Source: a virus
Strand: one strand, 5' to 3'
Length of the DNA stretch: 20,510 nt
IMG/VR virus record: IMGVR_UViG_3300006928_000142
Span: 1 to 20,510 of that record
Each line of letters begins with the position of its first letter. The first letter of the stretch is position 1. The notes under the pieces were generated by a model. That model saw nothing but the letters and a program-made list of their open reading frames with translations. It had not been told where the DNA came from and made no database searches. Of the stretch, positions 1 to 20,510 are shown in pieces. The translations under genes were made by a program, and so were the position numbers.

Positions 1-6
1 AATAAA

Positions 7-2352
7 ATGCTAGAAGTCGCAAAAAGATGGGCTCATGTTATTTCATCAAGAGAATTTACTAAAATTTTAAATGGTGTAGAATCTAATACAACCGATGAAG
101 AACTAGAAGAATATAGAAGGCAGGGAGTGGATATAAAGTGGGAAGGTCTTAATTCACCTGAAGATATTATTGCACTTATGAAAAAAGGAGAAGATACACC
201 TTGGCAGATAATCTTGGCTAATTTTTTGGCACGTAGTATTGTAGATAAAAGTAGACCAGACCATATATCATATAACTACGAATTATTTTACCCATTATCT
301 GTGTTTGATGAATTTTCAAAAATGGATGAACTGTTAGATGAAATTAAATCTGAATCTCTAGATAAATTAAAAAAATTTATGGTTAAAAACACATATGATT
401 TTTCCTTTGACGTAGAGGACTTTGAAAAAGATTTAACATTTAATAATAACTTCAGTGATGGGGATGACTTAAATAAATTTTTAAACGTCTGCCATGTTAT
501 AGAACTAGTTAATGAACACGATAATAAAAAACTAAAAGGTTTAGATGCAGTAAATAAATTAGCATCAGAAATCGCAGAGGAGGTTTTAGAACAACTTTCT
601 GGTGGTAAAATAATAGTGACACAATCTACTACTAAACAGGTAGATGTAGAGTTAGACGGTAAAAATTTACCATTAAGAATATTAGAGGGGACAAACCCCA
701 TATCTATAAATGACATGGAAGATTTACTAGGTGAGACAGAATACACTAAAGATACAATAAATATGTTAGATGGAAAACAGGATGATGCTAGTATTATTGA
801 AATATTTGATAAAATAACAAGTAAAAAGAAAACCGATAAAGGAATTGCATTCTCGAAAGCGATAGTATATACTAGTACTTCTGAGAAAGATACTGTAGAA
901 CTATCACTAAATATTAACTTAGATTTGTCTAAAAAATCACCAATTCCTGACGCAGCAAAAAGTATGACTAAAACTAGAAAACCTAACATACAAAAATTTA
1001 ATCACGAGTTAAATTTACAAAAATACGCTGAAGTAAATACAGATAATACAGAACCAGCCAAATTATCAGTCGATGAACAGTTACTTAATATTGCTGAAAA
1101 GGCTTTAGACACTTTACAGGATTTTGGAAAAACACATAGAATGTTATCTATAATTAAAGGTAATGATGTTCAGAAAATACTAAGGCAGACCCAAATAAAA
1201 TCTGTTATTAGTATTTTAAATTCTGTTATCAATTCGGCTAGTGATGAGGTAAAGGGACAATATTCTGAAAGATTATCTAATATTACGAATGTTATTGTAA
1301 AAGATGATTTACAATACGATGAATTAATAACTGTTATAGAACCAATGTATACTTTAATAACTGATATAACCCAACAATTAGAGCCTAGTGATGATGAATT
1401 AATGCCTGAAACTTCAGATATGTCCGACGAAGAATATGAAGAGTGGGCGGAAAGGAAAAAGAAAGATTTGCAGGAATTGGAAGATGAAGAATCCGATGAA
1501 GAAGAGGGGGTCGTACAAGACGACACATTATCCCCAGAGGTATTTTTAGAACTTGAAGGTGAAATAAAAGACCCTGATGATATTGGTACCATAGCCCATT
1601 TACGTAAAATTACTCAATCAGATAATGTAGACGATGTATATAGAGAGAAATTAGATTTTCTTAACGAATTTGGAAGAAGCGAAGACAATATTAATGCCAT
1701 AAAAAGTTTAACAGATGAAAAAGAGAAACTAAAAGGGGATGATGAGAAGAAGGTACAACTATTAAATGTTAATGCCGAATATAATCTACGTACTATCTTA
1801 CAACAATTAATGCAGGTTGACGAAGAGGCCAGTGTTCCGTTTATAAACAGCCTAATTACAAAAGCAAAAAAATCAATCAGTAGTTTTAAAAAGACGAAGG
1901 GTATAGAAAGTACAATGGGTAGTAGTTATAAGTTACTAAAGGGCTATAATATTAAACAAATGGTTATTGATATTCTTACACGTTCAAGTGGTTTTAATAC
2001 CGTAGATATTGCGGACTTATCAGGCACAATAAAACTCACTTTTATATTTAATAAATCATATGGGAGTCAACAAAGGTTTGGTAACAAACTTAAGTCCTTT
2101 ACTAAATTACAATACTCGCAGAAAAAACGAGTTGAATCGACAAGCGGTAAAGTTGATTTTACTGTGGTCCCTCTACACGGTAAAAACTATACAATGAGAA
2201 GTGTATTAACGCAGCAAGATACTGCTAGGGTTTCTGTTGGAGATAAGAGAAAAGGTGAAATATATGACTTCTTTAAGGTAAGGATTTATAATGAACTTTA
2301 CTCTAACATTAACGAGTTAGATAGATTACTTAAGCGGGTGGAAGCAGAATGA
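7..2352 (+). CDS. Unrecognised acidic 781-residue protein in the head-side position
   Basis: I do not recognise this protein. It lies just upstream of the head-tail adaptor, where capsid or capsid-associated genes usually sit, so a virion or head-assembly role is an inference from position only. It is predicted soluble and largely helical in the first 600 residues, rich in Asp, Glu and Lys. A very acidic, probably disordered stretch spans about residues 461-505 (includes SDEEYEEW and EESDEEE). The C-terminal 150 residues look different: mixed alpha/beta and basic (for example SKKRVES-like and GDKRKGE segments). No catalytic motif, signal peptide or membrane segment is visible. The ATG at 7 is the first start in the window. 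The in-frame codons before it (AAT AAA) are open, so a longer 5' end is possible, but the TAA at 3-5 in another frame may be the stop of a preceding gene, which would fit the compact layout. Its end overlaps the next gene as ATGA. Confidence 0.8.
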   Translation: MLEVAKRWAHVISSREFTKILNGVESNTTDEELEEYRRQGVDIKWEGLNSPEDIIALMKKGEDTPWQIILANFLARSIVDKSRPDHISYNYELFYPLSVFDEFSKMDELLDEIKSESLDKLKKFMVKNTYDFSFDVEDFEKDLTFNNNFSDGDDLNKFLNVCHVIELVNEHDNKKLKGLDAVNKLASEIAEEVLEQLSGGKIIVTQSTTKQVDVELDGKNLPLRILEGTNPISINDMEDLLGETEYTKDTINMLDGKQDDASIIEIFDKITSKKKTDKGIAFSKAIVYTSTSEKDTVELSLNINLDLSKKSPIPDAAKSMTKTRKPNIQKFNHELNLQKYAEVNTDNTEPAKLSVDEQLLNIAEKALDTLQDFGKTHRMLSIIKGNDVQKILRQTQIKSVISILNSVINSASDEVKGQYSERLSNITNVIVKDDLQYDELITVIEPMYTLITDITQQLEPSDDELMPETSDMSDEEYEEWAERKKKDLQELEDEESDEEEGVVQDDTLSPEVFLELEGEIKDPDDIGTIAHLRKITQSDNVDDVYREKLDFLNEFGRSEDNINAIKSLTDEKEKLKGDDEKKVQLLNVNAEYNLRTILQQLMQVDEEASVPFINSLITKAKKSISSFKKTKGIESTMGSSYKLLKGYNIKQMVIDILTRSSGFNTVDIADLSGTIKLTFIFNKSYGSQQRFGNKLKSFTKLQYSQKKRVESTSGKVDFTVVPLHGKNYTMRSVLTQQDTARVSVGDKRKGEIYDFFKVRIYNELYSNINELDRLLKRVEAE

Positions 2353-3437
2353 TACACAGACCTTCAGATACATCAATAAATCAAGCGGACTACGCAAACG
2401 GTATAGGTTACTATACCGACGTGGCAAGAATTGCTAATTTACTCAGTGTTCCAGAATTCGATGATTCATCATATCCGACAGAAGGTCATGTGGGTGAACT
2501 AATTCGCTATGCAGAAGATTATATTGACGAATATACAAAAGATTCATGGCGACCAATTTTAATCGAAAACGAATACCATGATTTTGATTATGATATGTTT
2601 AGAATGAATAGGGCTAGCATGTATAATAAGTATACAGATTATGTAGGGTATATCCGACTCAATGCAGAAAATCTTCGTAAAATAGTTAGGCTTGCTGTAT
2701 GGCGTGGTAATCAGTGGGAAGAACTTGCTGGTGCTACTTCTTCTGTAACAATTACTGACCATACTAATATTACAAATGTTGTTTTACGTTTACCTAATAG
2801 CGGAACTACTTTTACACTAACTCCCGGAACTACGGTTAGTACATTCAATACTACTTATGGTAATCGCACCGCTGCATATGAGTTAGCATATCTAATTAAC
2901 GAACAGTTACCTGTTATGACTAATGGGTTTACCGGGTCAAGTGGGAGGAAGGCTATAACATCAGGTTCAGATTCTATTAGTGATTTCTTTTATGCTACTG
3001 TGGAGCAGGACAATAAGATAGTAATCTCATCTACGCTACTGGGCGATGATGGTAAAAACTGCACACTTACTGTAAGTGGTAGTGGGGTTTCAAGGGAAGA
3101 TTTTTCAGATACCGAGGCCCGGGGCCGTGAGCAGGACTGGTGGGATATTCGTAATGATGGTGCTATATTTTTCCGAACTAACTACCCATATAATCAAAAA
3201 CACTCTATTCGTGTTACATATCTTACAGGAGGGGCGTCAGTCCCTGCTATTATTACTGAGGCCGCTACCAAAATTGTAGCATGTGAACTTATGGCCGAAG
3301 ACGATTCAACGCTTTTACTTGGTGAGAACGGTGAGGCCGGACTTGCTTTAACAGATAAATATACTAAGTATAAGGAAGAAATTGATAAAATTCTCGGTAT
3401 GAAAAAGCGCCTTATTTATTTCTTGGATAGTGATTAA
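2349..3437 (+). CDS. Putative head-tail adaptor (connector) protein with an inserted beta domain
   Basis: The N-terminal 70 residues (ARIANLLSVPEF... GELIRYAEDYIDEYTKDSW) have the helical pattern of head-tail connector or adaptor proteins of the HK97 gp6 / SPP1 gp15 type, which form a ring under the portal. The C-terminal part, about residues 298-350 (VPAIITEAATKIVACELM... then a Lys-rich helix), resembles the closing helices of that family. Between them, about residues 128-265 are Thr/Ser/Gly-rich and beta-like, so the protein is about three times the length of a minimal adaptor. The start overlaps the previous stop as ATGA, with GGTGG about 8 bases upstream as a possible ribosome-binding site. 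The following gene starts one base after its stop. The family call rests on my pattern recognition plus gene order. A general structural neck protein is the alternative. Confidence 0.6.
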   Translation: MIHRPSDTSINQADYANGIGYYTDVARIANLLSVPEFDDSSYPTEGHVGELIRYAEDYIDEYTKDSWRPILIENEYHDFDYDMFRMNRASMYNKYTDYVGYIRLNAENLRKIVRLAVWRGNQWEELAGATSSVTITDHTNITNVVLRLPNSGTTFTLTPGTTVSTFNTTYGNRTAAYELAYLINEQLPVMTNGFTGSSGRKAITSGSDSISDFFYATVEQDNKIVISSTLLGDDGKNCTLTVSGSGVSREDFSDTEARGREQDWWDIRNDGAIFFRTNYPYNQKHSIRVTYLTGGASVPAIITEAATKIVACELMAEDDSTLLLGENGEAGLALTDKYTKYKEEIDKILGMKKRLIYFLDSD

Positions 3438-3438
3438 T

Positions 3439-4167
3439 ATGTGGTATGATATAATTAAACAGGATAATGAGTTTTTTCTTGGTATAGAAACCTATGGTCC
3501 AGAAGTTAGCATGGCTATTTCTAATTATTCTATGGGGCTTACAGATACATTAGGTTTACGACTTATAATTGATACTCCTACAGCAAAACGTTTTAGGAAA
3601 AAAAATAGAAAAAAACTTATAGATGGTATATTTACTAAAATATATTCCGATATAATTAAAAATCATATGGAACTTGGAGAACCTATTGCTAAAGATAAGT
3701 TTTACGAATTAGTTGCGGATGAAGCAAAAAAATATACTATAACGATGGAAATTTTAACCAAGAATAAAATTAGTAAGAAAGTAACTAATTTATACGTTTT
3801 AACATCAAGTGGAAAAATTGGAAGAAAATACCAACATTATTACAAATATGCGCGTAAAGTGAGCCCCCGACCAGTTCAAGATTTAATATCAAGGGGATAT
3901 ATTGAATCTATTTCTGCCACAAATTTAGCACCAAGAGGAAATGACCCGGACGGCAGCAGGCGAACCAATACACATAGTCCTGACACAGCATATGGTTCGA
4001 AAGGAAGGGCAGTCCGAACATTAAGTAGAGATTACGAAAATAGTTTTATTAAAAAAAGAGAAGTTCCTCCTGATTTATATTTAGATAAACTACGTCCGTA
4101 TATGGCAAGACCAACAGTTTCACGCGATAGAAGCCACCCCCCTAAACCATTTAGAGGGCGACGATAA
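3439..4167 (+). CDS. Unknown basic protein at the head-tail interface
   Basis: This is a 242-residue protein of unknown function, predicted soluble. The first half contains a Lys/Arg-rich helix (AKRFRKKNRKKLIDGI) followed by further helices, faintly like the HK97 gp10 family of head-tail joining proteins, whose core is a basic helix. That similarity is weak. The last 70 residues are Pro/Arg/Ser-rich, strongly basic and probably disordered (ending PPKPFRGRR), which could bind DNA or anchor in the neck. I chose the ATG at 3439, one base after the adaptor stop, over an in-frame GTG at 3430 that overlaps the adaptor. No clear Shine-Dalgarno sequence precedes either one. It ends in a TAATG overlap with the next gene. 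Position between adaptor and terminator supports a neck or head-completion role. Confidence 0.7.
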   Translation: MWYDIIKQDNEFFLGIETYGPEVSMAISNYSMGLTDTLGLRLIIDTPTAKRFRKKNRKKLIDGIFTKIYSDIIKNHMELGEPIAKDKFYELVADEAKKYTITMEILTKNKISKKVTNLYVLTSSGKIGRKYQHYYKYARKVSPRPVQDLISRGYIESISATNLAPRGNDPDGSRRTNTHSPDTAYGSKGRAVRTLSRDYENSFIKKREVPPDLYLDKLRPYMARPTVSRDRSHPPKPFRGRR

Positions 4168-4373
4168 TGTTTGATAAGATTTTAAAGAAACTACAAACCT
4201 TACAAGAAAAAATACCTAATGTAGTAGAAACTACTAAGTCGCAGGCAGAAGAAGTAGAAAATATGAGCGAAGAACTTCTTGGGGTTAGAATGTCAGAAGA
4301 ACTTACTGCTAAGTTTATAAAGGAAGAAATAAATAATAAAATTACTCAGGAATTAAAAAAGGTGTTTGAGTAA
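4167..4373 (+). CDS. Small helical protein, 68 residues, unknown
   Basis: The gene is joined to both neighbours by TAATG overlaps, with GAGGGCGA upstream as a possible ribosome-binding site, so it is very likely translated despite its size. The protein is almost all charged helix (MFDKILKKLQTLQEK... then VENMSEELLGVRMSEEL), compatible with a short coiled coil. No family is recognisable. Its place between neck proteins and the terminator suggests a small structural or assembly-chaperone role, which is inference only. Confidence 0.65.
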   Translation: MFDKILKKLQTLQEKIPNVVETTKSQAEEVENMSEELLGVRMSEELTAKFIKEEINNKITQELKKVFE

Positions 4374-5014
4374 TGGCAGTAACAGAAGACGAAACAACAT
4401 CACTTATTACAATCCTTAGTGATAACTGGGCTGCTGCTTGTACTGCTTTAGATACTACAAACGGTAATGGACAAATAGCAGACATACACGCAGTAACTCC
4501 ACAAATACTAGATATTAGAAATATGAATTCTGGTAAAAATACTGATGCTCAAGGTCGCGCCCGTGGTGGTAATAGGATTAATACTAGTAAGGTAGAAACA
4601 GGAGATAGAACTGCTGGGACTCCCGAACCTATTTATTCTAATGATTTACTTATTATTTCTCAAAGTTCTCAAACTGTAAATTACCCTACGGTATTTTGGG
4701 ATTCCCGTGACGAAATTCATGAAATGGAAATATGGATTCGCACTAGACAGGATGATAGAACACTAACTAATGGAAGTAAGGTTTCCCCTAATTCTGGTAC
4801 ATTTGGTATAGACCGAATCCGAAGCCTTTATATTATAGTTAGGTATATAATCGAATTAAGGCGTAAGGGCTATATCAAAAATGGCTTGTTGTATCAAAAT
4901 ATTAACCACTTAATACTAGGCGGAAGAACAGAAAGTAACGACAAGAGAAATAAATTATTCGGATATAAAGTAAATATAACAATGAGAAGATTAGCACAAG
5001 GCGTCACATGTTAA
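4373..5014 (+). CDS. Putative tail terminator / tail completion protein
   Basis: This 213-residue protein lies immediately before the tail tube gene, the usual slot of the tail terminator (lambda gpU type), which caps the tube and joins it to the head. The N-terminus (SLITILSDNWAAACTAL) reads as the opening helix of such proteins. A Thr/Ser/Gly-rich central part follows, then a helix at about residues 143-165 (IDRIRSLYIIVRYIIELRRKG) and a final strand pair (NKLFGYKVNITMRRL). This helix-then-strand end with a beta strand ending in basic residues is typical of terminator and completion proteins. The start overlaps the previous stop as TAATG, with AGGTG upstream. A 21-base gap (5015-5035), A-rich and holding a weak GGTAAG ribosome-binding site, separates it from the tube gene. 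The call is moderate and depends partly on gene order. Confidence 0.5.
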   Translation: MAVTEDETTSLITILSDNWAAACTALDTTNGNGQIADIHAVTPQILDIRNMNSGKNTDAQGRARGGNRINTSKVETGDRTAGTPEPIYSNDLLIISQSSQTVNYPTVFWDSRDEIHEMEIWIRTRQDDRTLTNGSKVSPNSGTFGIDRIRSLYIIVRYIIELRRKGYIKNGLLYQNINHLILGGRTESNDKRNKLFGYKVNITMRRLAQGVTC

Positions 5015-5035
5015 CAAAAAAAGTAGGTAAGTAAA

Positions 5036-7339
5036 ATGTCAACATCAGAAGTATGGATGGGTTCCGGTCTAACAATGACTATGGCCCCTGAAGCAAAACT
5101 GTTTTTAGGATATATGCCGTATGGCCCAACATTAGGTAGAGCAAGCACAAATAGAGCGCACTTAATTAAGTATAGTTTAGGCTATGCTGTGGATGGAGCA
5201 TCTGTGGTAATTGATAATGCACATGGAGAAGGTAGTAACGCTGTAAAACATTTTACAGATTATTACCATTTAGTTCCTGATTTATATACGGGTTGTACAG
5301 CAGAATTTTATACTAAGAGTGCTTCTGGAGATTCTTACGCATTAGAATTTACTGCTATGGTAGCAGGTAATGATGCTGACGCTATTTACCTTTCTGGTAA
5401 TCTTGCTGATTTTCCAACATTATTCGCTGACGAAAATGCTGCTGTTTCTTCTTCAAGAAAAAGAGGATATATTTGTTTACAACAACATGGGGCAGTAGTT
5501 CCTGCACCTATTAGTTTAGAAACAGTTGCTACTGTTAGTACATTTACAAAAGATATTGAAGAAGTAACTGCTACATCAGGTACAGATTTAACTAAATTAG
5601 CGATTGATGAATTAGTTTATGATACAGCGAATGGTGTTTGTGTTGGTAAAGTGTGGGGTTTTTCTGCTAATAATACTGCATTAGCGGCAAGAGATGCACA
5701 TGATGGTGCTTCCACAGATGATACAGTACACTTTTTGTCTGCTAATTTAGGTACAGTTTCGGGTGCTTCAAGTGCTTCAAATAGTATTGGTACAGTAGTT
5801 ATGCCTACATCTATGACCGGAATTTTAACAGCAGGTGATTTTATTTCAGGTGATTTAAATACTAGAACAAATGCAGCAGTTATTGGTATTGTAATTACTC
5901 TTAGTTCTGATGGTACAACAGTTACGTTTGCACAAACGGCAACTCAATCATTTGGTTCAGGACATGAATTATATTGGGGTAGAGATACTTCTTTCGCTTT
6001 ATCATCCAGTTTAACTTCTATTGCTAGAGTAAGTGCTAGAGTTCTTTCAGATAACTGGTTGGGGTTAGTAGATTCTGCTACTCCATCTACACCAGATGTA
6101 ATGACAGAACAAAAAATGATGGCTATTGGTGGAACTAGAAACGTAACATATCAATACAAAGGTATTGAAACTCCAGCAGCGGCATCATTAGATGCTACAT
6201 TAAATCACGGAACATGGTTACATTATGCTTTGGGGACAACTACTGCTAGTTCTACTGTTGTAGATACTAACCCTGCAACAAATGTTTTCCAAAGAGCAGG
6301 AGCAAACGCATCAACACACGAAGTTCATGCTGGTTATACCGAAAACGCTACTTTAGATTACGACGGAGGCTCACAAAATGGTAAATTCCATAGAGTATTA
6401 AAAGGAACTGCTACTATTTGCCCACCATTAATACCCGGAGAAGCCACTGCTAAAGTAACTTTACCAAGTGTTTCTTCTGGACTTATTCAAAACGCAATCA
6501 CTTATACATTTAGCGAGCGTAATGATAATATTTTACCTTCTTTTGCTTTTGAATTATTAGCAGAAAAGGGTTCAAATGTTGACTCTATACCAATGGTTGA
6601 CCGAGGAACAACTGCAAGACAAGATGCAACTACTTTTGATACGAAAGATAACGTATATGCAGAAATACATCCGGGAGCAACATTAGGTTCATTAACTTTA
6701 ACTGCTTCTGCGGAATCTGCAGTTACTGCTAACATGTCATTTAATGTTAAAACCGTCTTTGATTGTCCTACAGGATATGTTGGAAGGGCCTATGATGCTA
6801 CAAATAATATCACTAAGGGTTCTAACTTACCTAGAGTTCTTAATAACTTCGGACAAAATACTGGAGTCGCTACTGCTTCTAAGCAGGATTTCTTAACCCC
6901 ATATTACTTTAGCGATGGAACTATTAGTTTATTCGGTAGTGAATTTATGCGTGTTACTAGTTTCGATTTAGCCATAGAAAACACCCTAACTGATAAACGT
7001 TTTATCGGCCAACACAATAAGAAAATACAAAGCGCAGTACCCGGACAAAGGACATATACTATTAATATGACTGCTCAACTAACAGACCGAAGGCTATTTG
7101 CAGAACTTAGAAATGAGGATTCTTTCCGTAGTGCTATGAGTAATGCTAATATTCAGTTACTTCTAACCAAAGCAACCGGAGAAAATATTAAACTTCAATT
7201 CGATGATTATATGATTTCTGTTGCTAGTTTCCCCGGACCTACAGATGACCGAGGGCCGCTTGAAGTATCATTTACTATTATGCCTATCCGTAAGGGAACC
7301 GAAATATCCACTAAAACCTCTTGGGTTCTTCAAGGATAA
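5036..7339 (+). CDS. Major tail tube protein with large N-terminal extension
   Basis: Residues about 365-767 read as a siphovirus tail tube subunit. They include a YQYKGIETPAAASLDATL-type opening, a first-half signature (HPGATLGSLTLTASAE then VTANMSFNVKTV), and a second-half signature (DGTISLFG... VTSFDLAIENTLTDKRFIGQ) followed by strands ending in LEVSFTIMPI. Tube subunits polymerise into the hollow tail through which DNA passes. The first 365 residues are extra. They include a beta-rich block (HFTDYYHLVPDLYTGCTA) and two tandem copies of a small beta module at about residues 182-240 and 262-320. The 767-residue length is roughly double that of a usual tube protein, so the extension probably decorates the tail surface. 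Position directly before the frameshifted chaperone and tape measure strongly supports the role. ATG at 5036 is preceded by a weak GGTAAG site. Confidence 0.8.
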   Translation: MSTSEVWMGSGLTMTMAPEAKLFLGYMPYGPTLGRASTNRAHLIKYSLGYAVDGASVVIDNAHGEGSNAVKHFTDYYHLVPDLYTGCTAEFYTKSASGDSYALEFTAMVAGNDADAIYLSGNLADFPTLFADENAAVSSSRKRGYICLQQHGAVVPAPISLETVATVSTFTKDIEEVTATSGTDLTKLAIDELVYDTANGVCVGKVWGFSANNTALAARDAHDGASTDDTVHFLSANLGTVSGASSASNSIGTVVMPTSMTGILTAGDFISGDLNTRTNAAVIGIVITLSSDGTTVTFAQTATQSFGSGHELYWGRDTSFALSSSLTSIARVSARVLSDNWLGLVDSATPSTPDVMTEQKMMAIGGTRNVTYQYKGIETPAAASLDATLNHGTWLHYALGTTTASSTVVDTNPATNVFQRAGANASTHEVHAGYTENATLDYDGGSQNGKFHRVLKGTATICPPLIPGEATAKVTLPSVSSGLIQNAITYTFSERNDNILPSFAFELLAEKGSNVDSIPMVDRGTTARQDATTFDTKDNVYAEIHPGATLGSLTLTASAESAVTANMSFNVKTVFDCPTGYVGRAYDATNNITKGSNLPRVLNNFGQNTGVATASKQDFLTPYYFSDGTISLFGSEFMRVTSFDLAIENTLTDKRFIGQHNKKIQSAVPGQRTYTINMTAQLTDRRLFAELRNEDSFRSAMSNANIQLLLTKATGENIKLQFDDYMISVASFPGPTDDRGPLEVSFTIMPIRKGTEISTKTSWVLQG

Positions 7340-7389
7340 CTGCATAAGGTTTATTAATAAAGGGCGTATTGCTAAGGTTAGTGACAACT
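7340..7389 (+). promoter_or_regulatory. Longest intergenic gap, with a possible archaeal TATA-like box
   Basis: This 50-base gap is the longest non-coding stretch in the window. It holds TTTATTAAT at 7350-7358, which resembles an archaeal TATA box placed about 30-36 bases before the chaperone ATG, so a transcript with a short leader could start near 7380. An AAGG/GTGA pair (7374-7384) may serve for ribosome binding. No hairpin terminator is evident. In AT-rich DNA such a match can arise by chance, so the promoter reading is tentative. Confidence 0.25.
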
Positions 7390-7767
7390 ATGAGTTACAC
7401 AATAGCCACAGATAAAAGCAAGTTGCTAGTTTCACGACAAGCAACGGAGCATTATGTTAGAATCGCTCCCGGTAGCGAAGAGTACCTAAAAATTTGGATT
7501 AAGGAACCAACGTTCCTGCAATTAGAACAGGCGCAAATGAAGTTATTCGACTTCAATGCTGGTTCTCAAGAAGTGAACCTAGACATGGCGGAAGTATACC
7601 GTTACCTTTGGGATGCATTTGTGGAGAAAACTGAACATGCTCTTAGTGCTATGGATGTATTAGGTCTTAATCCCTATATCGGCTCGCAAATCAAGGAGAT
7701 TTTACCAAATCCCTTTGCATTTACAGAGGTGGATGAGGATTTAAAAGTGCCTATCGTCGAGCAATAA
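7390..7767 (+). CDS. Tail assembly chaperone, short form (lambda gpG-like)
   Basis: This 125-residue protein follows the tube gene and precedes the tape measure, the canonical place of the tail assembly chaperone that coats the tape measure during tube polymerisation. The N-terminus has a compact beta-like start (YVRIAPGSEEYLKIWIKEP) followed by helices, as in gpG-type proteins, and no enzymatic motif. I chose ATG 7390 (MSYTIATDK). An upstream in-frame TTG at 7369 is less likely because it lies inside the gap and has no ribosome-binding site. Normal termination at TAA 7765-7767 gives this short form. A slippery heptamer lies 18 bases before the stop and permits the long form described separately. 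The gene looks somewhat richer in G/C at third positions than its neighbours. Confidence 0.8.
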   Translation: MSYTIATDKSKLLVSRQATEHYVRIAPGSEEYLKIWIKEPTFLQLEQAQMKLFDFNAGSQEVNLDMAEVYRYLWDAFVEKTEHALSAMDVLGLNPYIGSQIKEILPNPFAFTEVDEDLKVPIVEQ

Positions 7768-8000
7768 GAACAGGAAAAATAGATAATCCACAAATTGCAT
7801 CGAGGGTAATTATGTATACTTTAGCCAAAGAATTGAATATTCCACCTCATGAGTTAATAAACTATCCTATTAGTTTAGTTACTGATTTAATGACTATTTT
7901 TTCCGAAGTGAAATTATATGAGGCTGATTTAATAGACAAATCTACTAATAAAACTAGTGGAACTACAATGTCTAGTAATGATGGGATAAACTTTGGGTGA
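7390..8000 (+). CDS. Tail assembly chaperone, long frameshifted form (gpGT-like)
   Basis: A -1 shift at 7740-7746 fuses 119 residues of the short form to 84 residues from the other frame, giving 203 residues. The added part begins SAYRRAIRTGKIDNP and continues IASRVIMYTLAKELNIPP, which reads as the usual C-terminal T domain (basic helix, then YxLAKExxxPPxE). The T domain binds the tape measure protein, so a small amount of long form recruits the short form along it. The open part of the -1 frame extends well upstream of the first ATG in that frame (7812), and the coding pattern is conserved-looking across that stretch, which supports fusion rather than an independent gene. A separate start at 7812 behind GAGGGT (7802-7807) is possible but would omit the basic helix. 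The stop at 7998-8000 overlaps the tape measure ribosome-binding site. Confidence 0.8.
7740..7746 (+). promoter_or_regulatory. Programmed -1 ribosomal frameshift site, TTTAAAA
   Basis: The bases T TTA AAA match the X XXY YYZ slippery pattern exactly and in phase with the short chaperone frame: the final T of GAT, then TTA, then AAA. Slipping back one base re-pairs the two tRNAs on TTT and AAA and continues with AGT GCC TAT in the -1 frame. That frame is open from 7737 through 8000, running past the short-form stop. Such sites between the two chaperone frames are a hallmark of siphovirus tail operons. Confidence 0.85.
7757..7803 (+). other. Possible stem-loop downstream of the frameshift site
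   Basis: TCGAGCAA at 7757-7764 can pair with TTGCATCGA at 7795-7803, giving eight base pairs with one bulged A and a loop of about 30 bases. It begins about 10 bases after the slippery heptamer, close to the spacing seen for frameshift-stimulating structures. The long loop makes it weak, and I did not compute its energy. Confidence 0.3.
7996..8000 (+). promoter_or_regulatory. Ribosome-binding site of the tape measure gene, GGTGA
   Basis: GGTGA (within GGGTGATTTT) lies 6 bases before ATG 8007 and matches the 3' end of 16S rRNA well. It contains the stop codon of the long chaperone form, so chaperone and tape measure translation are probably coupled. Confidence 0.7.
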
Positions 8001-8006
8001 TTTTAA

Positions 8007-11751: not shown

Positions 11752-14700
11752 GTTTACACGCAGTAGATACTGGACAAAGTTTACCACCGTTAATTGATGT
11801 TGTTGGTGACTTTGATGCTAGTGCTAATACTTTTAGTAGAGATAGTGGTGGAACTATTACTGGTTTAAAACAGGGAATGGTTATTACAATTACAAATGCT
11901 GTTGATGGTGGAAATAATACTAACTATACTTTAACCGCAGATGCAAGCACTACGTTAGCATTAGGAAGTGTCGCCGCTGATGAAAGTAACGACACTGTTA
12001 CAATTACTCCTATTATTGGACATAATACACCAACTAACCCTACACTAGTAGAGATAAATAGTACAGCATTAGCCGGTGATATAAACTGTTTTGAGATATA
12101 TAAAACAAGGGGTGCTGCCCCTGCTAATACTTTAAACAGTGTTTCATCATCTACTGTTAATAGATTATATCCAACCAATACTACAATAGATAGTCACCAA
12201 TCGGCTAAAAGTACAACTCCCGGATATAAAATTCATTCAGATGTTACGCTCACAAATATACTAAGTGGTTCTTCTTTGGCTACGGCTAACGATTATTTTG
12301 TATTGATTTATTCCGATAATGGTAATAAACACCATTTTGCTAAAATTACCGAAGTATTAAATTATGATAATGCTGGAGACGGCTTTGAATTTGAACCTAG
12401 ATTAAAAGAAGATATACCAGAGGGAACCAAATTCGCGGTATACAAAGGGCCTTCATCTACAAATACTGATTTAGTAGCAGTTAGTTACGGCTTAACAGGA
12501 ACAGGTGATAAACATAACCACTATGTAAATGTTAGTCGACCAACGTTTTATTTCTACAATGACCGAATAGATAACCCAATAGATAACGAACTAGCACATA
12601 ATACAAAATATGAAGTTAGGAAAAGTAGATATGATGGGTCTAGCCATGTGCATAGTAGTACTTGTTTCTTAACTAACCAATCATTCGGACCTAGATTATT
12701 AGATAAAAGTCCATACAAACAAACTGTTAAAATAGTAGATACGGCCCACACATATGATAGCACAGTTAGTGCTAGTACAACAACTCACTATACTAATTAC
12801 GCTGGTTCAGCACAAACATATACTGCCAACTTAACTAGTTGGGACACTTGTTTTTTAAATGCTAGTAGGCCAGTATATACCTTATCTGGTGGATTAGCAA
12901 GTGGAAGTCAATCTGTTGCTACTGTATATTCAGGACCATCTACACATTTATCATTTGTTGAATCACCGGAAATAACTAAAATATTAGAGAACGTATCATC
13001 AGTTAAGGTGTCTAAAACAGTTACTGTTTCGGGTAACTACGCTGAGTTAGAAATATATGACTTTGAAAAGGTTCTAGATGAAAAAATTAAAATGAATGAT
13101 GATTTTAAAGTTAGAAGCGTATTATACCAACAGAAGTTAAATAATAACTATGATGTAAATTTACCCGGTAAGGTTCACACAAATACTACTGCTGGACAGT
13201 TAGAGTTTCAAGAACTCGGTGATGAACAAGATTTAGCCCGCCTATTAGGTGATGGGGAAACTATTCGTATAGATGACTATATCTATGTGGTAGCCTCAAT
13301 AGCATCTAAATCGGCAGGAACTCAAGTAGTTACAATTGATGCATATAAAACAAAAAATGCAGCCACATTTACAACAGGGACAACAATACATGATACTCTA
13401 TCAGGCGTAAAAGCCTTTAGGAGAGCATGGTCTACGTTAAAATCTAATTTGTTAACTAACGCTAAGATAGATACTGAAGTTGCGGCTGATGGTACAATAA
13501 CTAAAAATGGTATTACTGTTACTACATCTCAAGTAGATTATAGGGATTTAAATATTGTTTTAGATGATGGTGACCTTAAGAGTTATAGATTATCTGTAGA
13601 TAAAGGAGATAAGAATAACCAATACTTTGAACTAAATGATAGTGCTTTTAATATTTATCAATATGGTAATGAAAATAGAGGAACTTCTACTGTAACAAGT
13701 AACTCTGTTAAATATATAGCGCCAATAATTAACTACGTTGGTGGTGGGGCATTTATTGATAATGTTATTTTTGATGGAACTGTTGAATATATTAATAGTA
13801 AAACTGAAAGTACGCAAATGAAATACACAATTAGTGGTAGAGATGACTTAGGTAAGTTATTAGCAAAGGTAAATAATAAAAAATACCTTTATTCCGATGA
13901 ATATGTTTATTCTACTATGAGTCCGATTAGTCAAATGACTGATACAGGTTTAGATTTGAGAGTTACATCGGGTAGCACTCTCGCTACTCAAGATGCAGGT
14001 TCCGCTAATATTAGTACATCAAGAAGGGGTAGTGGAACGTACGTTCCTTTAGAAATTGGTGATAGAATATATTATAGGTATTTATCCTCACCGAGGGAAC
14101 AGTATATTTTGTTAGGTATAGTGTCTGCAAATACCGCTACTTCTGACCCCGGAACTGGAGTAACAGTAACTGTGTCTTTAGAAACACCTCTATCAGAAGA
14201 TATATTCAGAGATGTTACTACACCAAAATTTAGTGTTACTGCACCGGGGGCGGGAACGTCACCATTCTCTATTGCTAATTCCACAGAAGCAATAGTTTAT
14301 GTGGCTAAATCAACCATTATGGCAGGTAAATCTTTATCAACAAATCAAACTGATACTGATACTCCTACTACCTTAAGAGGTAGTGCAGACAAAGGTATAA
14401 ACTTTATTTCTGGTAAAAAAATAAATGTCTATACTGGGCAGGATTCAACATCATTAGTTGGGTCAAAATCAGACACATATGTAGGATTAGATAATGAAAA
14501 CTCATTAGGTTATACTATTTCAAATACTGTTCAAATTGATTCTAATATGTCCCCGGAAGGTTTTGTTCCTTTTAACTCTGATGGTACTGAAAACAAGTTA
14601 CACACTGTTTCCTCTATGACCGAGTACGATGTAATAGATATAGAAACGTTAGATGATGGACTTAACAATATCAGCGTAGCCCCAATCATGCCCACTGTCT

Positions 14701-17700
14701 TAGGTAGGATTGATTCAAATACTGCTAGAAAATCTATTACTAACGAACAACATATTTATCTAATTAACAAAGGGGGCTTGCCCTCCGGTGGGATATTACA
14801 CCTATTAAATTCAGAAGCAATAACTAATAACGATTCTGAAAATTACCCTATATCCTTTGTAGGAAAATTAAATGATGATAACCTAGGTTCACCTAAACTA
14901 TATGCAACATATAGTACTAGATTCGGTTCTTTTATGTGGAGGTATTCATACCTTGAAGATGGTAGTATATACTATCAGGATGAAATAGGTGATAGAATAA
15001 CTAATACTGCTAAGACATCTATACTTGGTATTACTGGTCTAGATTTATATAGAGATAAAAAAGGTAATATTAGAGCCTGTCTTACTGGTGTAAGAATTGA
15101 TGGTAATGGACAAACTATCGCTTTAGGTGATGATAACTCAGTTTCTGATACAAAATTACGGGAGGGTTCTCCTGAAACTAGGGGTCCAATGCCCGTATTG
15201 GGTAGTAATTTCTATGATACAACTTTGATTCCTAGAAACTGTGATAACGCAAATCATAGTCAAGATTCTAGTAGTATTGCGAATAATGACCACGATAATT
15301 ACAGAGAAAAATACTGGGGTAGGTTATTGGCCCAAGACAGCGATGACGATAATATTTTCTATGTAGATAAGATGTTCTTTGAAGCAAATGACCCCAAAGC
15401 AATAAATACTTTTTTGTTTGCATTGGGTGATATTTATCCTGATAGTATGACTAGACCTAATCATATAGGTTACCCTGCAGCCTCACGGTCTTTTACAGAT
15501 TACTCTCTAATTTTTAAAGCCAGCGGTACTACGGTAGCAGGGATAGAGCATGATAAATATGTCGGACAATTAACATCTAAAAGACAAAATGATGCCTCTT
15601 ATGATATTTTACCAGTCAACACAAGTTCTATTTCACCTAATACTATGAAAAGATTTGGAGTAGTTAGGTTGGTAGAGATGACTATGGATTGGCATTTTAA
15701 TAATGTTGATGTAGAAAATAAAACTGATATAAATAATTATACTGCGATGCTAGATGTTCATAATAAAAAATTCCAATTGCATAATGAATTATTTAGTGCA
15801 AATGACCACCAAGTTAAATTTCATACTGCAGTATTAAATCTTGGAGCAGAATTAACTAATGGTGCTAGTAGTGTGACTTTAAATGCATCTCCAGCGGCTA
15901 CAGGTGGAAGGTCTAGTTCAGGATTAACAAGTTTACCTACTAATTATATAAATACTAGCGCAACAGTTACTGCTGTATCTGGTAATGTAATAACAATCAG
16001 TAATGGTGCTTACGGTAATGCTAGTCACTTTCACGAAGGTATGATTATTGCTAGAATTGGTAATACTGCTACGTCTGTAACTAACGAAGATAGACAATAT
16101 GCTATGATAGAGAGCGCAGCAGATAATAGTTCAAATGTAGAAATTACTCTTAAATCCGCAAGTAGTAGCGAAAATGGTCCTAACGTTCCTGAGTATGAAA
16201 AGTTATTTGACCATGCTTTGATTAACCATTCACCTGCTGACCCAAGTGTTTCTGGTGGAGATATTATACAAATAGTACCTATTGAAATTTACGCTGACCC
16301 TCTTACGGGTTCTTCTGCTACAAGTCCTAATAGAGTTTTTATAGGCACAGTTAGTGCCATAAGTGGGGCTACTATAACTTTAGGTTCTAACTATAGTGGT
16401 CCTACTATTGCTAATGGAACTGAAGTATATTTTAGCGTTGGGCCAGATTCAGTTCATCAAAGTGGGACACCTATAAATATTAAACATGATTTTAATGTAA
16501 AAATACAAGAATTCAATTCACATATTATTAGTGGTAGCGTCCAGTTTCCTTGGTTTGTAACTAATAACAATGCTGGATATAACCACAATAAAGAATTAAT
16601 ACATAATCAACTAATAAGTCCTTTATACTTAGGTAACACAAATACTAATGTTATTGCCTCGGACTATGGGCCTCTGGATGTAAATAAGGGATATTCCCCA
16701 TTTAAATCTAGTATTCAAGGATTAATTAGAAGTAGTTCTAGAGTTATTAATGAAATGTTAGTACAAGATAGTTTTACGCAAACAAACACTAGTAATACTT
16801 CCCGTCTAACGGAAGTAGAAGTTTCTGGTGGTTCTAAGATTAGAAATAATATGATAGGTTTAATTACTAGAGGTTACAAACCGAATGCGTTTTTTGAAAA
16901 TACGATGCTAAATGCTAAAAGGTCTAAAGATGTTATATTAGATTACCCATCAAATTCTTCAGATAACACAATGAATGTTAGAACTACAGGGGTTGGGTAT
17001 GCTAGTGAATTTCAGGCTGGTGCTTATCTTAACACTAAAATAGGTGTTGATTCAGATGATTTAGAAAATATAGATAAATTTGAGGCCATATATTTTCACC
17101 CAAGAAATGATGAAGATGGTGGTGGTGCTTCCGACGAATTTATTAGATTGTTAAGTAATAAGTTTAGAAGTAGTTTTGCTAGTGTAATTGCAGATGCTGC
17201 GATTCTTGTAGATGATATGGCTAACGCACAATATGGTTCAGGTAGTGTTAACTTTACAGTGGGTGATGCTTTCTTATTAGGTATGCGGGCTGACTATATT
17301 ATAGCAACTGCCGGTATGACTTTCCCAATTGTTAATTTAAGTTATCCTAAAGGTGATGGTGATAATTACTTTTATAGCACTTCTTACGGCCAAGCATATT
17401 TAGGTTCTGCTCAAACTGCTCATAGTGGAACTTCTTCGGATAACCCATACGCTGCTTTGAAGTTTGACGAATTAAGTAGATACACAAATAGTAATAAATT
17501 ACAGGACGAAGGTACAGGAGAGTTAAATTCATATTTAGGATTAACTAAGGCGGGTAACGGTATTGAAGAAAAATCATCAAGTCCGGTGCAAGACCAAAGA
17601 TTCAATGAAACCTCAATTACCGGAGCAGAAGTATACTATAAACCGGTTGTAAATTTACAGGCTGATGATGTAGGTATTGGTGGAACAATAGATATTCATG

Positions 17701-19511
17701 CTCAGAAAAGACGAAGGATTACTTTTAGTATTTATAATACTCCAGACAGTAATCATATTACCGAACTAATTGAAAATAAAAGTTATGCAAATGACGGAGA
17801 TGATAGACAATTACATAGATGGATTCATTTCTGTCCTGACCTTACGGGTTATTATTTAGTTAGTGAAGAAGGCAAAACGTTTGCTAATGCCTCTACATCC
17901 AATAGAGCAATTAATAATACTGTTCCCACATTTATACATAAAATTATATCTCATACTATAGAGAAACAATTATCTGAAACAAGTAACACAGAATACTTTA
18001 AACACGTAATTGAAATAGATAATGCTAATACTTATAGCACAGGGTTTTATCGAGTTATGAGAATATCACAAGATACATTCTATGACTTTACCCCGTCAGA
18101 AATTAACCTGTTAACACTATCTAATTCTTATTCTAAAGTAACAGGTAGCGATAAATGTTATGGGCCTATTAATAGGTTTAACTATTATGATGCTGGGTTT
18201 GATGCCAGTGTAGATACTATGTATAATGAGGGTTTACTATCTATGTTTATGCCTATTAATATAGATGTAATTGACGGAGGCTTCGTAGATATTAGAAGTG
18301 CACAACATTTCGCTACTGCTACTAATTCACCTGAAACAGTTAATGGTGTAGCAAATGTTACAAAACCAAGATTTGTAGATAATACAACATATCAAATGTC
18401 TATTACCGATGGGCACTCTAGATATAGTTCAGGGGTTAAAGTAGCAAGAGCGAACACCACCCCAGTTGTATATAGATTAGAAATGTCTAATATTAAAGCA
18501 ATGGGTGGTGTAGTATCTTTTGGGGAGATTTTTACTTTGTCTACTTTTAATAAACCTAAATTTAATGGTAAGCGATGTTCCATAGGTACTAATTTCCAAG
18601 TAGTAGATGAGGCAGAACAAGTAATTAATGATTTAATAGAAAATACAGATATAACATATACTCAAACAACAGATACTGCAAAGTACTATGAAGCGTTTAA
18701 TGTGCAAGGTTTAGACAGTTTTAGTGCTGTGAATTTTGTCGCATCTCTCAAAAATAGAAAATTAATAGTAGACGGTAAAACCGTTCAATTAGTTAAGGAT
18801 ATTGAAGATGAAGATTATACTAATATTGAATTTAATGAATTTGATGCAGACAATAGAATAGGACAAATATCTAGAGATAATAACTTATTTGATTTCTTTA
18901 ATCAAATTACAGTGTATGGTGACGGTGTTAAGAGCACAGTAAGAGATTATAATTCTGTAAAGAAAGATGGGTTAAAAGAATTAGAAGAGGTTGACTTAAC
19001 TATAGTCACAGAAGAAGCATGTAAAAGAAAGGCTATGAATCTATTACGAGTTCACTCGGAATCTAGTCCAGCAATATCTTTTAAGGTGTTATATGAACAA
19101 TGCCCATACTTAAGACCCGGACAAATAATTAATATTAATTACCCATCAGAAAAAATAGCAAGGGGTGAGTATATCGTATTGGAAATTAACTATGAAATAG
19201 GAGGATTCATGGATGTTAAAGTAGGTAAATATGCTAAGAATCTAACAAACCGCATTGCAGAATTATTAGTACAGGGTAAAAGGGTAGATGCTGCTTTACG
19301 TGGTGACCGATATAAAACCACGACTCCTAGCAGTTTTATACAAGAAGAAGTTGCGCTTAGAGCAGTTAAACTTAAAGTACAGTATACTACTGCTACAAGT
19401 ACAGTAGCAAATGTATTTGGATTTACGACCATATTTGGTGTTGATACAACACTAGGAATAACGGTCCCAACAGGAGAGTCAACACAAAACTTGGAGTATG
19501 ATTTACTATGA
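11748..19511 (+). CDS. Giant tail hub / baseplate protein (gpJ/Tal-like), 2,587 residues
   Basis: The C-terminal part, about residues 2277-2545, reads as a phage tail hub. It contains an EQVINDLIENTDITYT helix, LKNRKLIVDGKTVQLV, then FNQITVYGDGV (about 2387), a helix-rich stretch, and PYLRPGQIININYP (about 2453) ending in strands and NRIAELL. This is the pattern of hub proteins that close the tube and carry fibres. An early hub-like region lies at about 418-470 (VTVSGNYAELEIYDFEKVL), followed by KYTISGRDDLGKLL near 690-702. Between these hub regions lie roughly 1,500 residues of beta-rich, Asn/Ser/Thr-rich sequence with several small repeated modules, so the hub fold appears split by a huge insertion. 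Residues 30-90 repeat the module seen at the start of the Dit-like gene. No hydrolase or chaperone-protease motif is recognisable. Receptor binding by the inserted region is inference. Confidence 0.75.
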   Translation: MSLHAVDTGQSLPPLIDVVGDFDASANTFSRDSGGTITGLKQGMVITITNAVDGGNNTNYTLTADASTTLALGSVAADESNDTVTITPIIGHNTPTNPTLVEINSTALAGDINCFEIYKTRGAAPANTLNSVSSSTVNRLYPTNTTIDSHQSAKSTTPGYKIHSDVTLTNILSGSSLATANDYFVLIYSDNGNKHHFAKITEVLNYDNAGDGFEFEPRLKEDIPEGTKFAVYKGPSSTNTDLVAVSYGLTGTGDKHNHYVNVSRPTFYFYNDRIDNPIDNELAHNTKYEVRKSRYDGSSHVHSSTCFLTNQSFGPRLLDKSPYKQTVKIVDTAHTYDSTVSASTTTHYTNYAGSAQTYTANLTSWDTCFLNASRPVYTLSGGLASGSQSVATVYSGPSTHLSFVESPEITKILENVSSVKVSKTVTVSGNYAELEIYDFEKVLDEKIKMNDDFKVRSVLYQQKLNNNYDVNLPGKVHTNTTAGQLEFQELGDEQDLARLLGDGETIRIDDYIYVVASIASKSAGTQVVTIDAYKTKNAATFTTGTTIHDTLSGVKAFRRAWSTLKSNLLTNAKIDTEVAADGTITKNGITVTTSQVDYRDLNIVLDDGDLKSYRLSVDKGDKNNQYFELNDSAFNIYQYGNENRGTSTVTSNSVKYIAPIINYVGGGAFIDNVIFDGTVEYINSKTESTQMKYTISGRDDLGKLLAKVNNKKYLYSDEYVYSTMSPISQMTDTGLDLRVTSGSTLATQDAGSANISTSRRGSGTYVPLEIGDRIYYRYLSSPREQYILLGIVSANTATSDPGTGVTVTVSLETPLSEDIFRDVTTPKFSVTAPGAGTSPFSIANSTEAIVYVAKSTIMAGKSLSTNQTDTDTPTTLRGSADKGINFISGKKINVYTGQDSTSLVGSKSDTYVGLDNENSLGYTISNTVQIDSNMSPEGFVPFNSDGTENKLHTVSSMTEYDVIDIETLDDGLNNISVAPIMPTVLGRIDSNTARKSITNEQHIYLINKGGLPSGGILHLLNSEAITNNDSENYPISFVGKLNDDNLGSPKLYATYSTRFGSFMWRYSYLEDGSIYYQDEIGDRITNTAKTSILGITGLDLYRDKKGNIRACLTGVRIDGNGQTIALGDDNSVSDTKLREGSPETRGPMPVLGSNFYDTTLIPRNCDNANHSQDSSSIANNDHDNYREKYWGRLLAQDSDDDNIFYVDKMFFEANDPKAINTFLFALGDIYPDSMTRPNHIGYPAASRSFTDYSLIFKASGTTVAGIEHDKYVGQLTSKRQNDASYDILPVNTSSISPNTMKRFGVVRLVEMTMDWHFNNVDVENKTDINNYTAMLDVHNKKFQLHNELFSANDHQVKFHTAVLNLGAELTNGASSVTLNASPAATGGRSSSGLTSLPTNYINTSATVTAVSGNVITISNGAYGNASHFHEGMIIARIGNTATSVTNEDRQYAMIESAADNSSNVEITLKSASSSENGPNVPEYEKLFDHALINHSPADPSVSGGDIIQIVPIEIYADPLTGSSATSPNRVFIGTVSAISGATITLGSNYSGPTIANGTEVYFSVGPDSVHQSGTPINIKHDFNVKIQEFNSHIISGSVQFPWFVTNNNAGYNHNKELIHNQLISPLYLGNTNTNVIASDYGPLDVNKGYSPFKSSIQGLIRSSSRVINEMLVQDSFTQTNTSNTSRLTEVEVSGGSKIRNNMIGLITRGYKPNAFFENTMLNAKRSKDVILDYPSNSSDNTMNVRTTGVGYASEFQAGAYLNTKIGVDSDDLENIDKFEAIYFHPRNDEDGGGASDEFIRLLSNKFRSSFASVIADAAILVDDMANAQYGSGSVNFTVGDAFLLGMRADYIIATAGMTFPIVNLSYPKGDGDNYFYSTSYGQAYLGSAQTAHSGTSSDNPYAALKFDELSRYTNSNKLQDEGTGELNSYLGLTKAGNGIEEKSSSPVQDQRFNETSITGAEVYYKPVVNLQADDVGIGGTIDIHAQKRRRITFSIYNTPDSNHITELIENKSYANDGDDRQLHRWIHFCPDLTGYYLVSEEGKTFANASTSNRAINNTVPTFIHKIISHTIEKQLSETSNTEYFKHVIEIDNANTYSTGFYRVMRISQDTFYDFTPSEINLLTLSNSYSKVTGSDKCYGPINRFNYYDAGFDASVDTMYNEGLLSMFMPINIDVIDGGFVDIRSAQHFATATNSPETVNGVANVTKPRFVDNTTYQMSITDGHSRYSSGVKVARANTTPVVYRLEMSNIKAMGGVVSFGEIFTLSTFNKPKFNGKRCSIGTNFQVVDEAEQVINDLIENTDITYTQTTDTAKYYEAFNVQGLDSFSAVNFVASLKNRKLIVDGKTVQLVKDIEDEDYTNIEFNEFDADNRIGQISRDNNLFDFFNQITVYGDGVKSTVRDYNSVKKDGLKELEEVDLTIVTEEACKRKAMNLLRVHSESSPAISFKVLYEQCPYLRPGQIININYPSEKIARGEYIVLEINYEIGGFMDVKVGKYAKNLTNRIAELLVQGKRVDAALRGDRYKTTTPSSFIQEEVALRAVKLKVQYTTATSTVANVFGFTTIFGVDTTLGITVPTGESTQNLEYDLL

Positions 19512-19903
19512 TAACAGAACTAGCAAGACAAGCACTTAGGGATTTTGTACAAGATAATTTTTTAGGATATAAAATAGGCACAGGTGGAGATAGTTCCAAC
19601 CCAAATGCTACAAACTTAGATGCACCGCTTAGTGTAGGGGGTACAGAACTTCAAACTAGTGGAATAACTATAACCACTTCAGGTATTTCGTCAATTGATT
19701 TCACAATAACTTTAAGTGCTAGTTCCTATGTAGGAGAAGTAATAAGAGAGGTTGGTATTTTTAATACCGCAACAGATATTACAATTGATGGAACAACCTA
19801 CGCGGCTGGTGCAATAATGTTAGTGAGAGTCCCTTTTGATGGTATTGGACCTATTACTTCTAGTGATAATATAGAATTAGTTGTTTCAGTGGACGTGGTA
19901 TAA
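19508..19903 (+). CDS. Small tail-fibre/baseplate-associated beta protein
   Basis: This 131-residue protein begins inside the hub stop (ATGA overlap) and ends in a TAATG overlap with the fibre gene. It starts with a helix (ARQALRDFVQDN), then YKIGTGGDSSNPNATNLDAPL, a beta core, and VIREVGIFNTA with a closing strand (SSDNIELVVSVDV). The order GTG... then EVGIFN... then a final ..I.VVV strand is a pattern I know from small proteins in phage fibre and baseplate regions, with no enzymatic function. It may form a connector between the hub and the fibre encoded next. Confidence 0.6.
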   Translation: MITELARQALRDFVQDNFLGYKIGTGGDSSNPNATNLDAPLSVGGTELQTSGITITTSGISSIDFTITLSASSYVGEVIREVGIFNTATDITIDGTTYAAGAIMLVRVPFDGIGPITSSDNIELVVSVDVV

Positions 19904-20510
19904 TGGTAGCAAACGAAGGGAAAATTACTACATTTGGGACTACAGGAACTCTTGGTGGTTTAGTAGACGGTACCGATACTATTCATACCGGTGTTGCTAA
20001 AACATTATTTGCTATTGCTTCTGGTTGTCGTGTTGTTAGTAGTGGAACTTTTACACAATCTTCTGATGATTTTGTGTTGGCTAACCCAACTACTTATAGA
20101 ACACTAGGAACAAAAGTTACTTTATCTAGTAGTTCCGGACACAATACAGTTACAGTTGGTGCTGGTGATAGCACTTACGATAGATATGATTTAATATATA
20201 TTGATGCTGGAAACAATAGATTAGCAATTAGTGCGGGTCAAGTTAATCCTGCTAGAATTGCAGATATAAATAATGATGATGTTCCAGTTGCTATTGTTAA
20301 AGTAGCGGCAGGTGCGGCGGCAACAAACACACATAGTTTCCAAACTTTAATGAGTGTATATAATACAGATAGTTTTGCTGGTGATGATATAGTTAGTTTA
20401 ATTATAGGTGCAGATGCAGATGGTACAGATAGAACAATTACTTTTGGTCATTCAACTCTTAAAACAATTATGGGAATTGATGATAGTGCTGATAAATTTA
20501 TTATTAACAC
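19903..20510 (+). CDS. Tail fibre or baseplate protein, 5' part (cut by window end)
   Basis: This reading frame opens with the ATG of a TAATG overlap and stays open to the right edge, giving 202 residues of an incomplete protein. About residues 18-145 read as a compact beta domain: a THTG-like start, a GTFTQSSDDF strand, then STYDRYDLIYIDAGNNRL and DVPVAIVKV, a pattern common at the base of phage fibres and baseplate attachment proteins. The final residues (FGHSTLKTIMGIDDSADKF) look like the start of a fibre shaft repeat. It is probably a receptor-binding fibre attached to the hub. The receptor-binding tip lies outside the window. Confidence 0.6.
   Translation, partial: MVANEGKITTFGTTGTLGGLVDGTDTIHTGVAKTLFAIASGCRVVSSGTFTQSSDDFVLANPTTYRTLGTKVTLSSSSGHNTVTVGAGDSTYDRYDLIYIDAGNNRLAISAGQVNPARIADINNDDVPVAIVKVAAGAAATNTHSFQTLMSVYNTDSFAGDDIVSLIIGADADGTDRTITFGHSTLKTIMGIDDSADKFIIN

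Follow-up and report, generated by a model that had tools for sequence, protein, structure and literature searches.

Tail genes and missing words in the window

We analyzed a virus contig of 20,510 bases (IMG/VR record IMGVR_UViG_3300006928_000142, positions 1 to 20,510; here called the window) that contains neither of the tetramers AGCT and GATC. The contig makes up the whole of its record and carries a portion of the tail module from a head-tailed virus. Over its entire length (1..20510), word counts also found no AGWCT, CCWGG, or GATATC.

The open reading frames (ORFs) described here all lie on the + strand. The 3′ part of a larger gene truncated at the left end of the window (7..2352; 999 amino acids in the near-identical record G001; no family match) is followed by a conserved protein matching PHROG 17057, of unknown function (2349..3437; E 6e-20; present in eight of nine related records). 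Three ORFs with no family match come next: a tail-module ORF (3430..4167), a small ORF (4167..4373), and a conserved tail-module ORF whose counterpart in G007 was spotted by eye (4373..5014). The tail tube protein (Phage_tube_2; 5036..7339; PF18906, E 1.2e-15) was used as the query for finding relatives. The tube gene is followed by a small conserved ORF (7369..7767; no match) that, judging from its place, is possibly a tail assembly chaperone, and a further small ORF without a match (7812..8000) precedes the gene for a probable tail tape-measure protein (8007..9608; 69 residues matched to phrog_19914, E 1.9e-6). Downstream lie tail-module proteins with a weak PHROG match (9608..10639; phrog_1236, E 4.9e-5) and a sub-threshold lectin-like match (10636..11751; Laminin_G_3, 25.6 bits against a cut-off of 27.6). 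The longest product (11748..19511; 2,587 amino acids; no PHROG match) is probably a distal tail or receptor-binding protein, given its size and place; a small tail-module ORF without a match closes the row (19508..19903).

Under a maximal-order Markov model, 61.5 AGCT and 46.0 GATC sites were expected in the 20,510 bases, and none of either was observed. These were the only missing tetramers among all 256, and both sites are palindromic, so they are missing from either strand. An earlier note on this sequence had claimed that AGCT is wholly missing, that GCT is common (more than 150 occurrences) yet never follows an A, and that the other four-base palindromes are present. The recount bore this out: GCT occurred 226 times and AGC 177 times, and the remaining 14 palindromes were all found, the rarest being CGCG (6), TCGA (17), and GCGC (19). 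The observed/expected ratio of both sites is thus under 0.1, the level at which a site counts as avoided; a published survey of prokaryotic viruses, which under-represent the Type II sites of their hosts, terms such sites "eliminated" (PMC6286503, Rusinov et al. 2018).

The coding sequence was then shuffled among synonymous codons, preserving protein and codon usage (500 rounds, 13 ORFs). Shuffled sequences contained a mean of 79.8 AGCT sites (standard deviation 6.6, minimum 59) and 40.5 GATC sites (standard deviation 4.9, minimum 25). GTAC, AATT, TGCA, and TCGA were mildly low by the same shuffles but present (z of −3.4 to −4.0). Codon contexts agreed: an alanine codon following a codon that ends in A was GCT in 0 of 118 cases, compared to 184 of 333 in other contexts; an aspartate codon preceding C was GAT in 0 of 22 cases, compared to 350 of 418; and among AGC and AGT serine codons preceding T, AGC was used in 0 of 40. 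The virus switches codon wherever AGCT or GATC would arise, and the change is synonymous, the site being lost and the protein kept. The Markov expectation and the shuffles together uphold the claim of the earlier note that this is not a general effect of composition.

The same note had held that exactly two palindromes are missing, which is correct for tetramers but not overall. Two degenerate palindromes were likewise absent from the window, AGWCT against 19.0 expected copies and CCWGG against 12.2, and in the pooled records G001, G002, and G009 of its subclade neither was found against 82 and 47 expected, respectively. Among 19 contigs checked, AGWCT was missing solely in this subclade. The absence of GATATC is weak evidence taken singly, because just 5.8 sites were expected.

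Spread of the pattern among related viruses

The first nine relatives all had zero AGCT and zero GATC sites. G001, a longer record, matches the window at 99.95% identity over 15.9 kb, and both G001 and G008 show this identity over their aligned parts; therefore, these two are not independent cases. Palindrome odds ratios were then computed over 83 further contigs (110 loci minus contigs among the first relatives and second loci of one contig; one locus of up to 21 kb per contig). AGCT was missing in 78 of the 83 and GATC likewise in 78, with summed counts of 146 AGCT against 2,298 expected and 115 GATC against 2,260 expected; the 83 are not all independent, because some are close strains. In seven relatives of 91-99 kb, neither site occurred at all (1,496 AGCT and 1,740 GATC expected). 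The absence thus persists across most of the clade, in contigs that stem from many IMG datasets.

Other palindromes behaved differently. CTAG, ACGT, CCGG, TCGA, and GTAC were lost in certain lineages only among the 83 contigs, and the longer relatives lacked many more palindromes than the set missing from the window. Single genomes among the long relatives (L026-L030 and others) jointly lack many palindromes, for example, GATATC, CTAG, ACGT, CGCG, GTAC, and TCGA. Such lineage-specific sets might predict host restriction sets.

The contigs that retain one or both sites fall into distinct groups. Near-normal counts (observed/expected) were seen in L195 from record G261 (AGCT 76/89, GATC 57/64), L266 (28/29 and 29/24), and L269 (17/17 and 12/14). 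L196 and L198 (G264 and G265) had 8/30 and 9/34 of expected GATC and no AGCT, while L278 and L279 (G266 and G267) had 5/13 and 20/47 of expected AGCT and no GATC. Since some contigs hold GATC only and others AGCT only, the two pressures are separable, in line with the two distinct specificities proposed in the earlier note. A single enzyme acting on both sites was rejected on the same grounds. In a midpoint-rooted terminase tree of 49 rows, the exceptions fell at three separate places, and the GATC-only and AGCT-only exceptions stood beside zero-site lineages with strong support. We infer that the pressures were relaxed in these lineages rather than never having acted. G261 itself was still low in TCGA (12/32) and GATATC (1/13). 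Its 48-kb contig (loci L195 and L286-L288) seemed on visual inspection to hold structural and unassigned genes only, and the search for relatives gave no longer member of that lineage.

Relatives found in IMG/VR include seven contigs of 91-99 kb with 30-36% G+C. In G007, one of these seven, Pfam profiles matched a family B polymerase, a clamp-loader-like AAA ATPase, an ATP-dependent DNA ligase, a B12-dependent ribonucleotide reductase, and a prohead protease. The counterparts of these genes were found by phmmer in six or seven of the seven longest relatives, those of the polymerase, clamp-loader-like ATPase, and ligase in all seven. These relatives show the Magrovirales traits of an archaeal-type replisome, a genome of 90-100 kb, and low G+C; the window covers the tail module only. 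Aoguangviridae and other magroviruses, described in PMC10768690, have been linked to Poseidoniales. The likeness rests on genome size, G+C, and replication genes of the relatives, compared with the published description and not by alignment, and the window fits that description as the predicted tail module of a magrovirus-like virus. Following the magrovirus literature and compositional likeness, marine Poseidoniales archaea are the presumed hosts. Among phage-collection records, the G005 portal and the G007 capsid protein were closest to haloarchaeal tailed viruses, including Druskaviridae. Two relatives encode tRNA-Leu(TAA) (G006 and G007) and one tRNA-Arg(TCT) (G006; L024:17970-18173, L027:19315-19402).

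Control genomes were examined over 50 kb each, again as observed/expected. Pelagiphage HTVC027P, whose G+C is comparable (35%), avoids neither site (AGCT 296/247, GATC 182/182). In S-CAM4, GATC is retained (276/284) and AGCT is scarce (49/161); in vir335, the scarce site is GATC (146/359), and AGCT is not depleted (197/133). Two Druskaviridae, HCTV-1 and HVTV-1, which count among the best-matching named viruses for the G005 portal and G007 capsid protein, have likewise purged GATC (0/240 and 0/213), but AGCT is kept in them (136/176 and 96/121).

Presumed host DNA and candidate enzymes

The host sample comprised 40 stretches, 764.9 kb in total, drawn from 39 genomes and chosen on contigs with methyltransferase-family matches, some of them weak, which may introduce bias. 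The two lowest of the 256 host tetramers were AGCT (1223/2460) and GATC (1958/3890), each at 0.50 of expectation, followed by CGCG. Sixty-seven contigs with a 16S probe site, mostly titled Poseidoniales, Marine Group II, or Euryarchaeota, had GATC (0.58), TATA (0.65), and AGCT (0.66) as their lowest palindromes. CCWGG (0.74) was the most depleted of 32 degenerate pentamer palindromes in host DNA, and ACGT was at 0.00 in one G258 stretch. The ratio of 0.00 for CCGG in stretch L350 of G164 was considered as a virus-host match and rejected, as L370 of the same genome has 9 CCGG sites; the two differ in size and composition (20 kb at 42% G+C and 10.4 kb at 36% G+C), and one of the G164 contigs may be foreign to the bin. 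Without L350, AGCT and GATC remained the lowest among the palindromes checked in host DNA.

Dam-type methyltransferases (PF02086) exceeded the cut-off in 28 of 243 host genomes, many of these being short cross-matches of another family. In L102 and L104, the Dam-type genes most resemble DpnM (2dpm) of the DpnII system, and the ORF adjoining the L102 gene was hit by a PADLOC model for Type II endonucleases (E 3.4e-32). Dam/DpnM-like methyltransferase genes with an adjoining ORF lie at L102:625-2337, where the endonuclease model matched, and at L103:635-2325. From these matches, the locus is likely a GATC restriction system in Poseidoniales. The six host genomes whose Dam-type match was strong had less GATC than 32 others (one-sided P = 0.028), where Dam-type meant at least 118 bits, a threshold fixed after the list was seen; G022, G129, and G164, with weaker matches, counted as lacking the gene, and G013 was dropped.

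An AGCT-specific system, which the earlier note suggested might exist in hosts, was sought and none was identified. Cytosine methyltransferases (PF00145) exceeded the cut-off in 31 of 243 host genomes, with no association with AGCT by eye and no specificity assigned. PF01555 did so in 127 of 243. Among its 30 best loci, 28 held one gene adjoining a phosphoglycerate-kinase-like ORF, with no endonuclease seen among neighbors inspected by eye. This conserved DNA methyltransferase of the N6/N4 type (TSPPYN; L147:1225-2208, with counterparts among L148-L175) occurs in many Poseidoniales genomes. The median AGCT ratio was 0.36 in genomes with the phosphoglycerate-kinase-linked gene and 0.73 in those without (26 versus 11; P = 0.0011; phylogeny not controlled; G023 and G013 excluded as outside the 243). 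CTAG, ACGT, CGCG, and GATC also differed between the two sets, and AGCT was hardly depleted in two carriers, G198 (0.83) and G175 (1.03). The gene is only a candidate for the AGCT enzyme.

No methyltransferase of the three families was found in the viruses (PF02086, 0 of 37 records; PF00145, 0 of 37; PF01555, 0 of 29), most records being fragments, the window included. The exceptional viruses also had none, the 48-kb G261 contig lacking the replication region; either a modification system or a different host might account for the sites retained there. In ORFs longer than 90 amino acids of the window and nine first relatives, no [DNS]PP[YFW] motif was found. SPPY occurs in two long ORFs of G269, by chance or otherwise.

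Probable host restriction and its alternatives

We think the best explanation for the absence of AGCT and GATC, with a probability of about 0.85, is that the virus has purged sites at which host restriction enzymes cut, because no other tetramer among the 256 is as depleted in Poseidoniales DNA. Restriction endonucleases of AGCT and GATC specificity would circulate in the Poseidoniales hosts and cut incoming viral DNA that carries an unmethylated site. A virus without a methyltransferase of the three searched families would leave its sites unprotected, and they would be purged through synonymous codon changes, with AGWCT and CCWGG additionally purged in the subclade of the window. The proposal of host restriction in the earlier note is therefore retained as the best reading, although its AGCT enzyme was not identified in the hosts.

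Several observations weigh against this explanation. The host stretches came from contigs with methyltransferase-family matches and are not a random sample. The palindrome spectra of virus and host agree loosely (Spearman 0.58 over 16 palindromes; P = 0.019), the agreement falls to 0.37 (P = 0.19) with AGCT and GATC excluded, and a value of 0.81 pertains to 12 palindromes only. AGCT is undepleted in stretches of four host genomes (G049, G206, G020, and G175), and neither site is avoided in the virus group made up of G261, L266, and L269. The link to Poseidoniales is gene content resembling Aoguangviridae rather than a spacer or an infection. By our own reading of the list, strong full-length Dam-type matches occur in just 6 of 243 host genomes; the endonuclease model that matched in L102 found 0 of 243, though its controls gave no match either, and no AGCT enzyme was identified among the methyltransferase-family matches in hosts.

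A virus-encoded endonuclease that cuts host DNA at AGCT and GATC, sparing the site-free virus itself, seems improbable to us. A pressure fixed in the virus lineage would account for an absence that is near-universal in the clade while recognized host enzymes are sparse. Such a role has been proposed for endonucleases of haloarchaeal tailed viruses in PMC8651126, and "restriction enzyme-like nucleases" are mentioned for the magrovirus family Apasviridae in PMC12999244. All seven long relatives encode PD-(D/E)XK (Cas4-like) and ERCC4-domain proteins, and six of the seven an HNH-like ORF below the Pfam cut-off. However, a viral nuclease does not readily explain why host DNA is depleted of the same two tetramers, and the purging of other palindromes lineage by lineage would need many nucleases. 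None of the eight G007 proteins scanned matches a PADLOC Type II endonuclease model, and G268, another virus with zero sites, yielded no counterpart of the HNH-like ORF.

We give still less credence to the idea that GATC is selected against by a modification-dependent or phosphorothioate-type host system in place of classic Type II restriction, and AGCT by a second system. For haloarchaea, PMC7230728 discusses both phosphorothioation of GATC and the cleavage of methylated GATC by Mrr. On contig 24 of G044 (L105 and L387), a Dam-type gene has a DndC-like neighbor, which scores 285.6 bits against a cut-off of 290.4; however, DndC-like matches occur in 2 of 243 host genomes, none above the cut-off. 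We know of no phosphorothioate- or modification-dependent system of this kind for AGCT. Composition, mutational bias, or an assembly or library artifact would have to produce zero sites where codon shuffles gave 80 (AGCT) and 41 (GATC), in a window where other palindromes are present. Many IMG datasets agree on the absence, one or both sites survive in some contigs from within the clade, and the exceptions follow descent in the terminase tree. The shuffles, controls, and exceptional contigs rule this account out, and we assign it next to no weight.

Purging by host restriction has precedents. In the HF1 group of haloviruses, GATC and CTAG are wholly missing from all seven isolates and HRTV-7 lacks AGCT, avoidance that the authors credit to host defenses (PMC7230728). 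These viruses resemble the present ones in having lost GATC but differ in virus group and hosts and in that AGCT is lost in HRTV-7 only; here both are lost jointly across most of a large marine clade. Archaeal and haloarchaeal tailed viruses either encode Dam or lack GATC, "methylate or purge" (PMC8651126). The survey of site avoidance cited above applies the same ratio of <0.1; its text does not mention AGCT, and the hosts considered here are uncultured. No report of such purging in magroviruses was found in the literature covered, most subscription journals and bioRxiv lying outside that coverage. The text of PMC10160649 contains none of six terms for restriction, methylation, or palindromes, and those of PMC7318539, PMC12999244, and PMC11705971 do not mention GATC or AGCT. 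In PMC7962313, a k-mer study with 26 magrovirus sequences, palindromes, GATC, and restriction go unmentioned and AGCT appears only in a thermophily table.

The pattern is thus best read as an instance of a familiar type of adaptation, one that is unusually broad and clean. What stands out is the loss of the same two words through most of a widely sampled clade of viruses presumed to infect uncultured archaea, the apparent hosts being most depleted of the very words that the viruses lost. A stronger version of host restriction, which we hold only tentatively and think rather doubtful, is an old, order-wide Poseidoniales restriction of AGCT and GATC by enzymes not yet recognized, with the phosphoglycerate-kinase-linked methyltransferase as one candidate partner. 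If so, most magrovirus lineages would have been site-free for the whole diversification of the clade. More generally, virus genomes may reveal host restriction specificities lineage by lineage, which would yield a prediction, from sequence only, of host immune specificities and, for example in the three exceptional lineages, of host switches.

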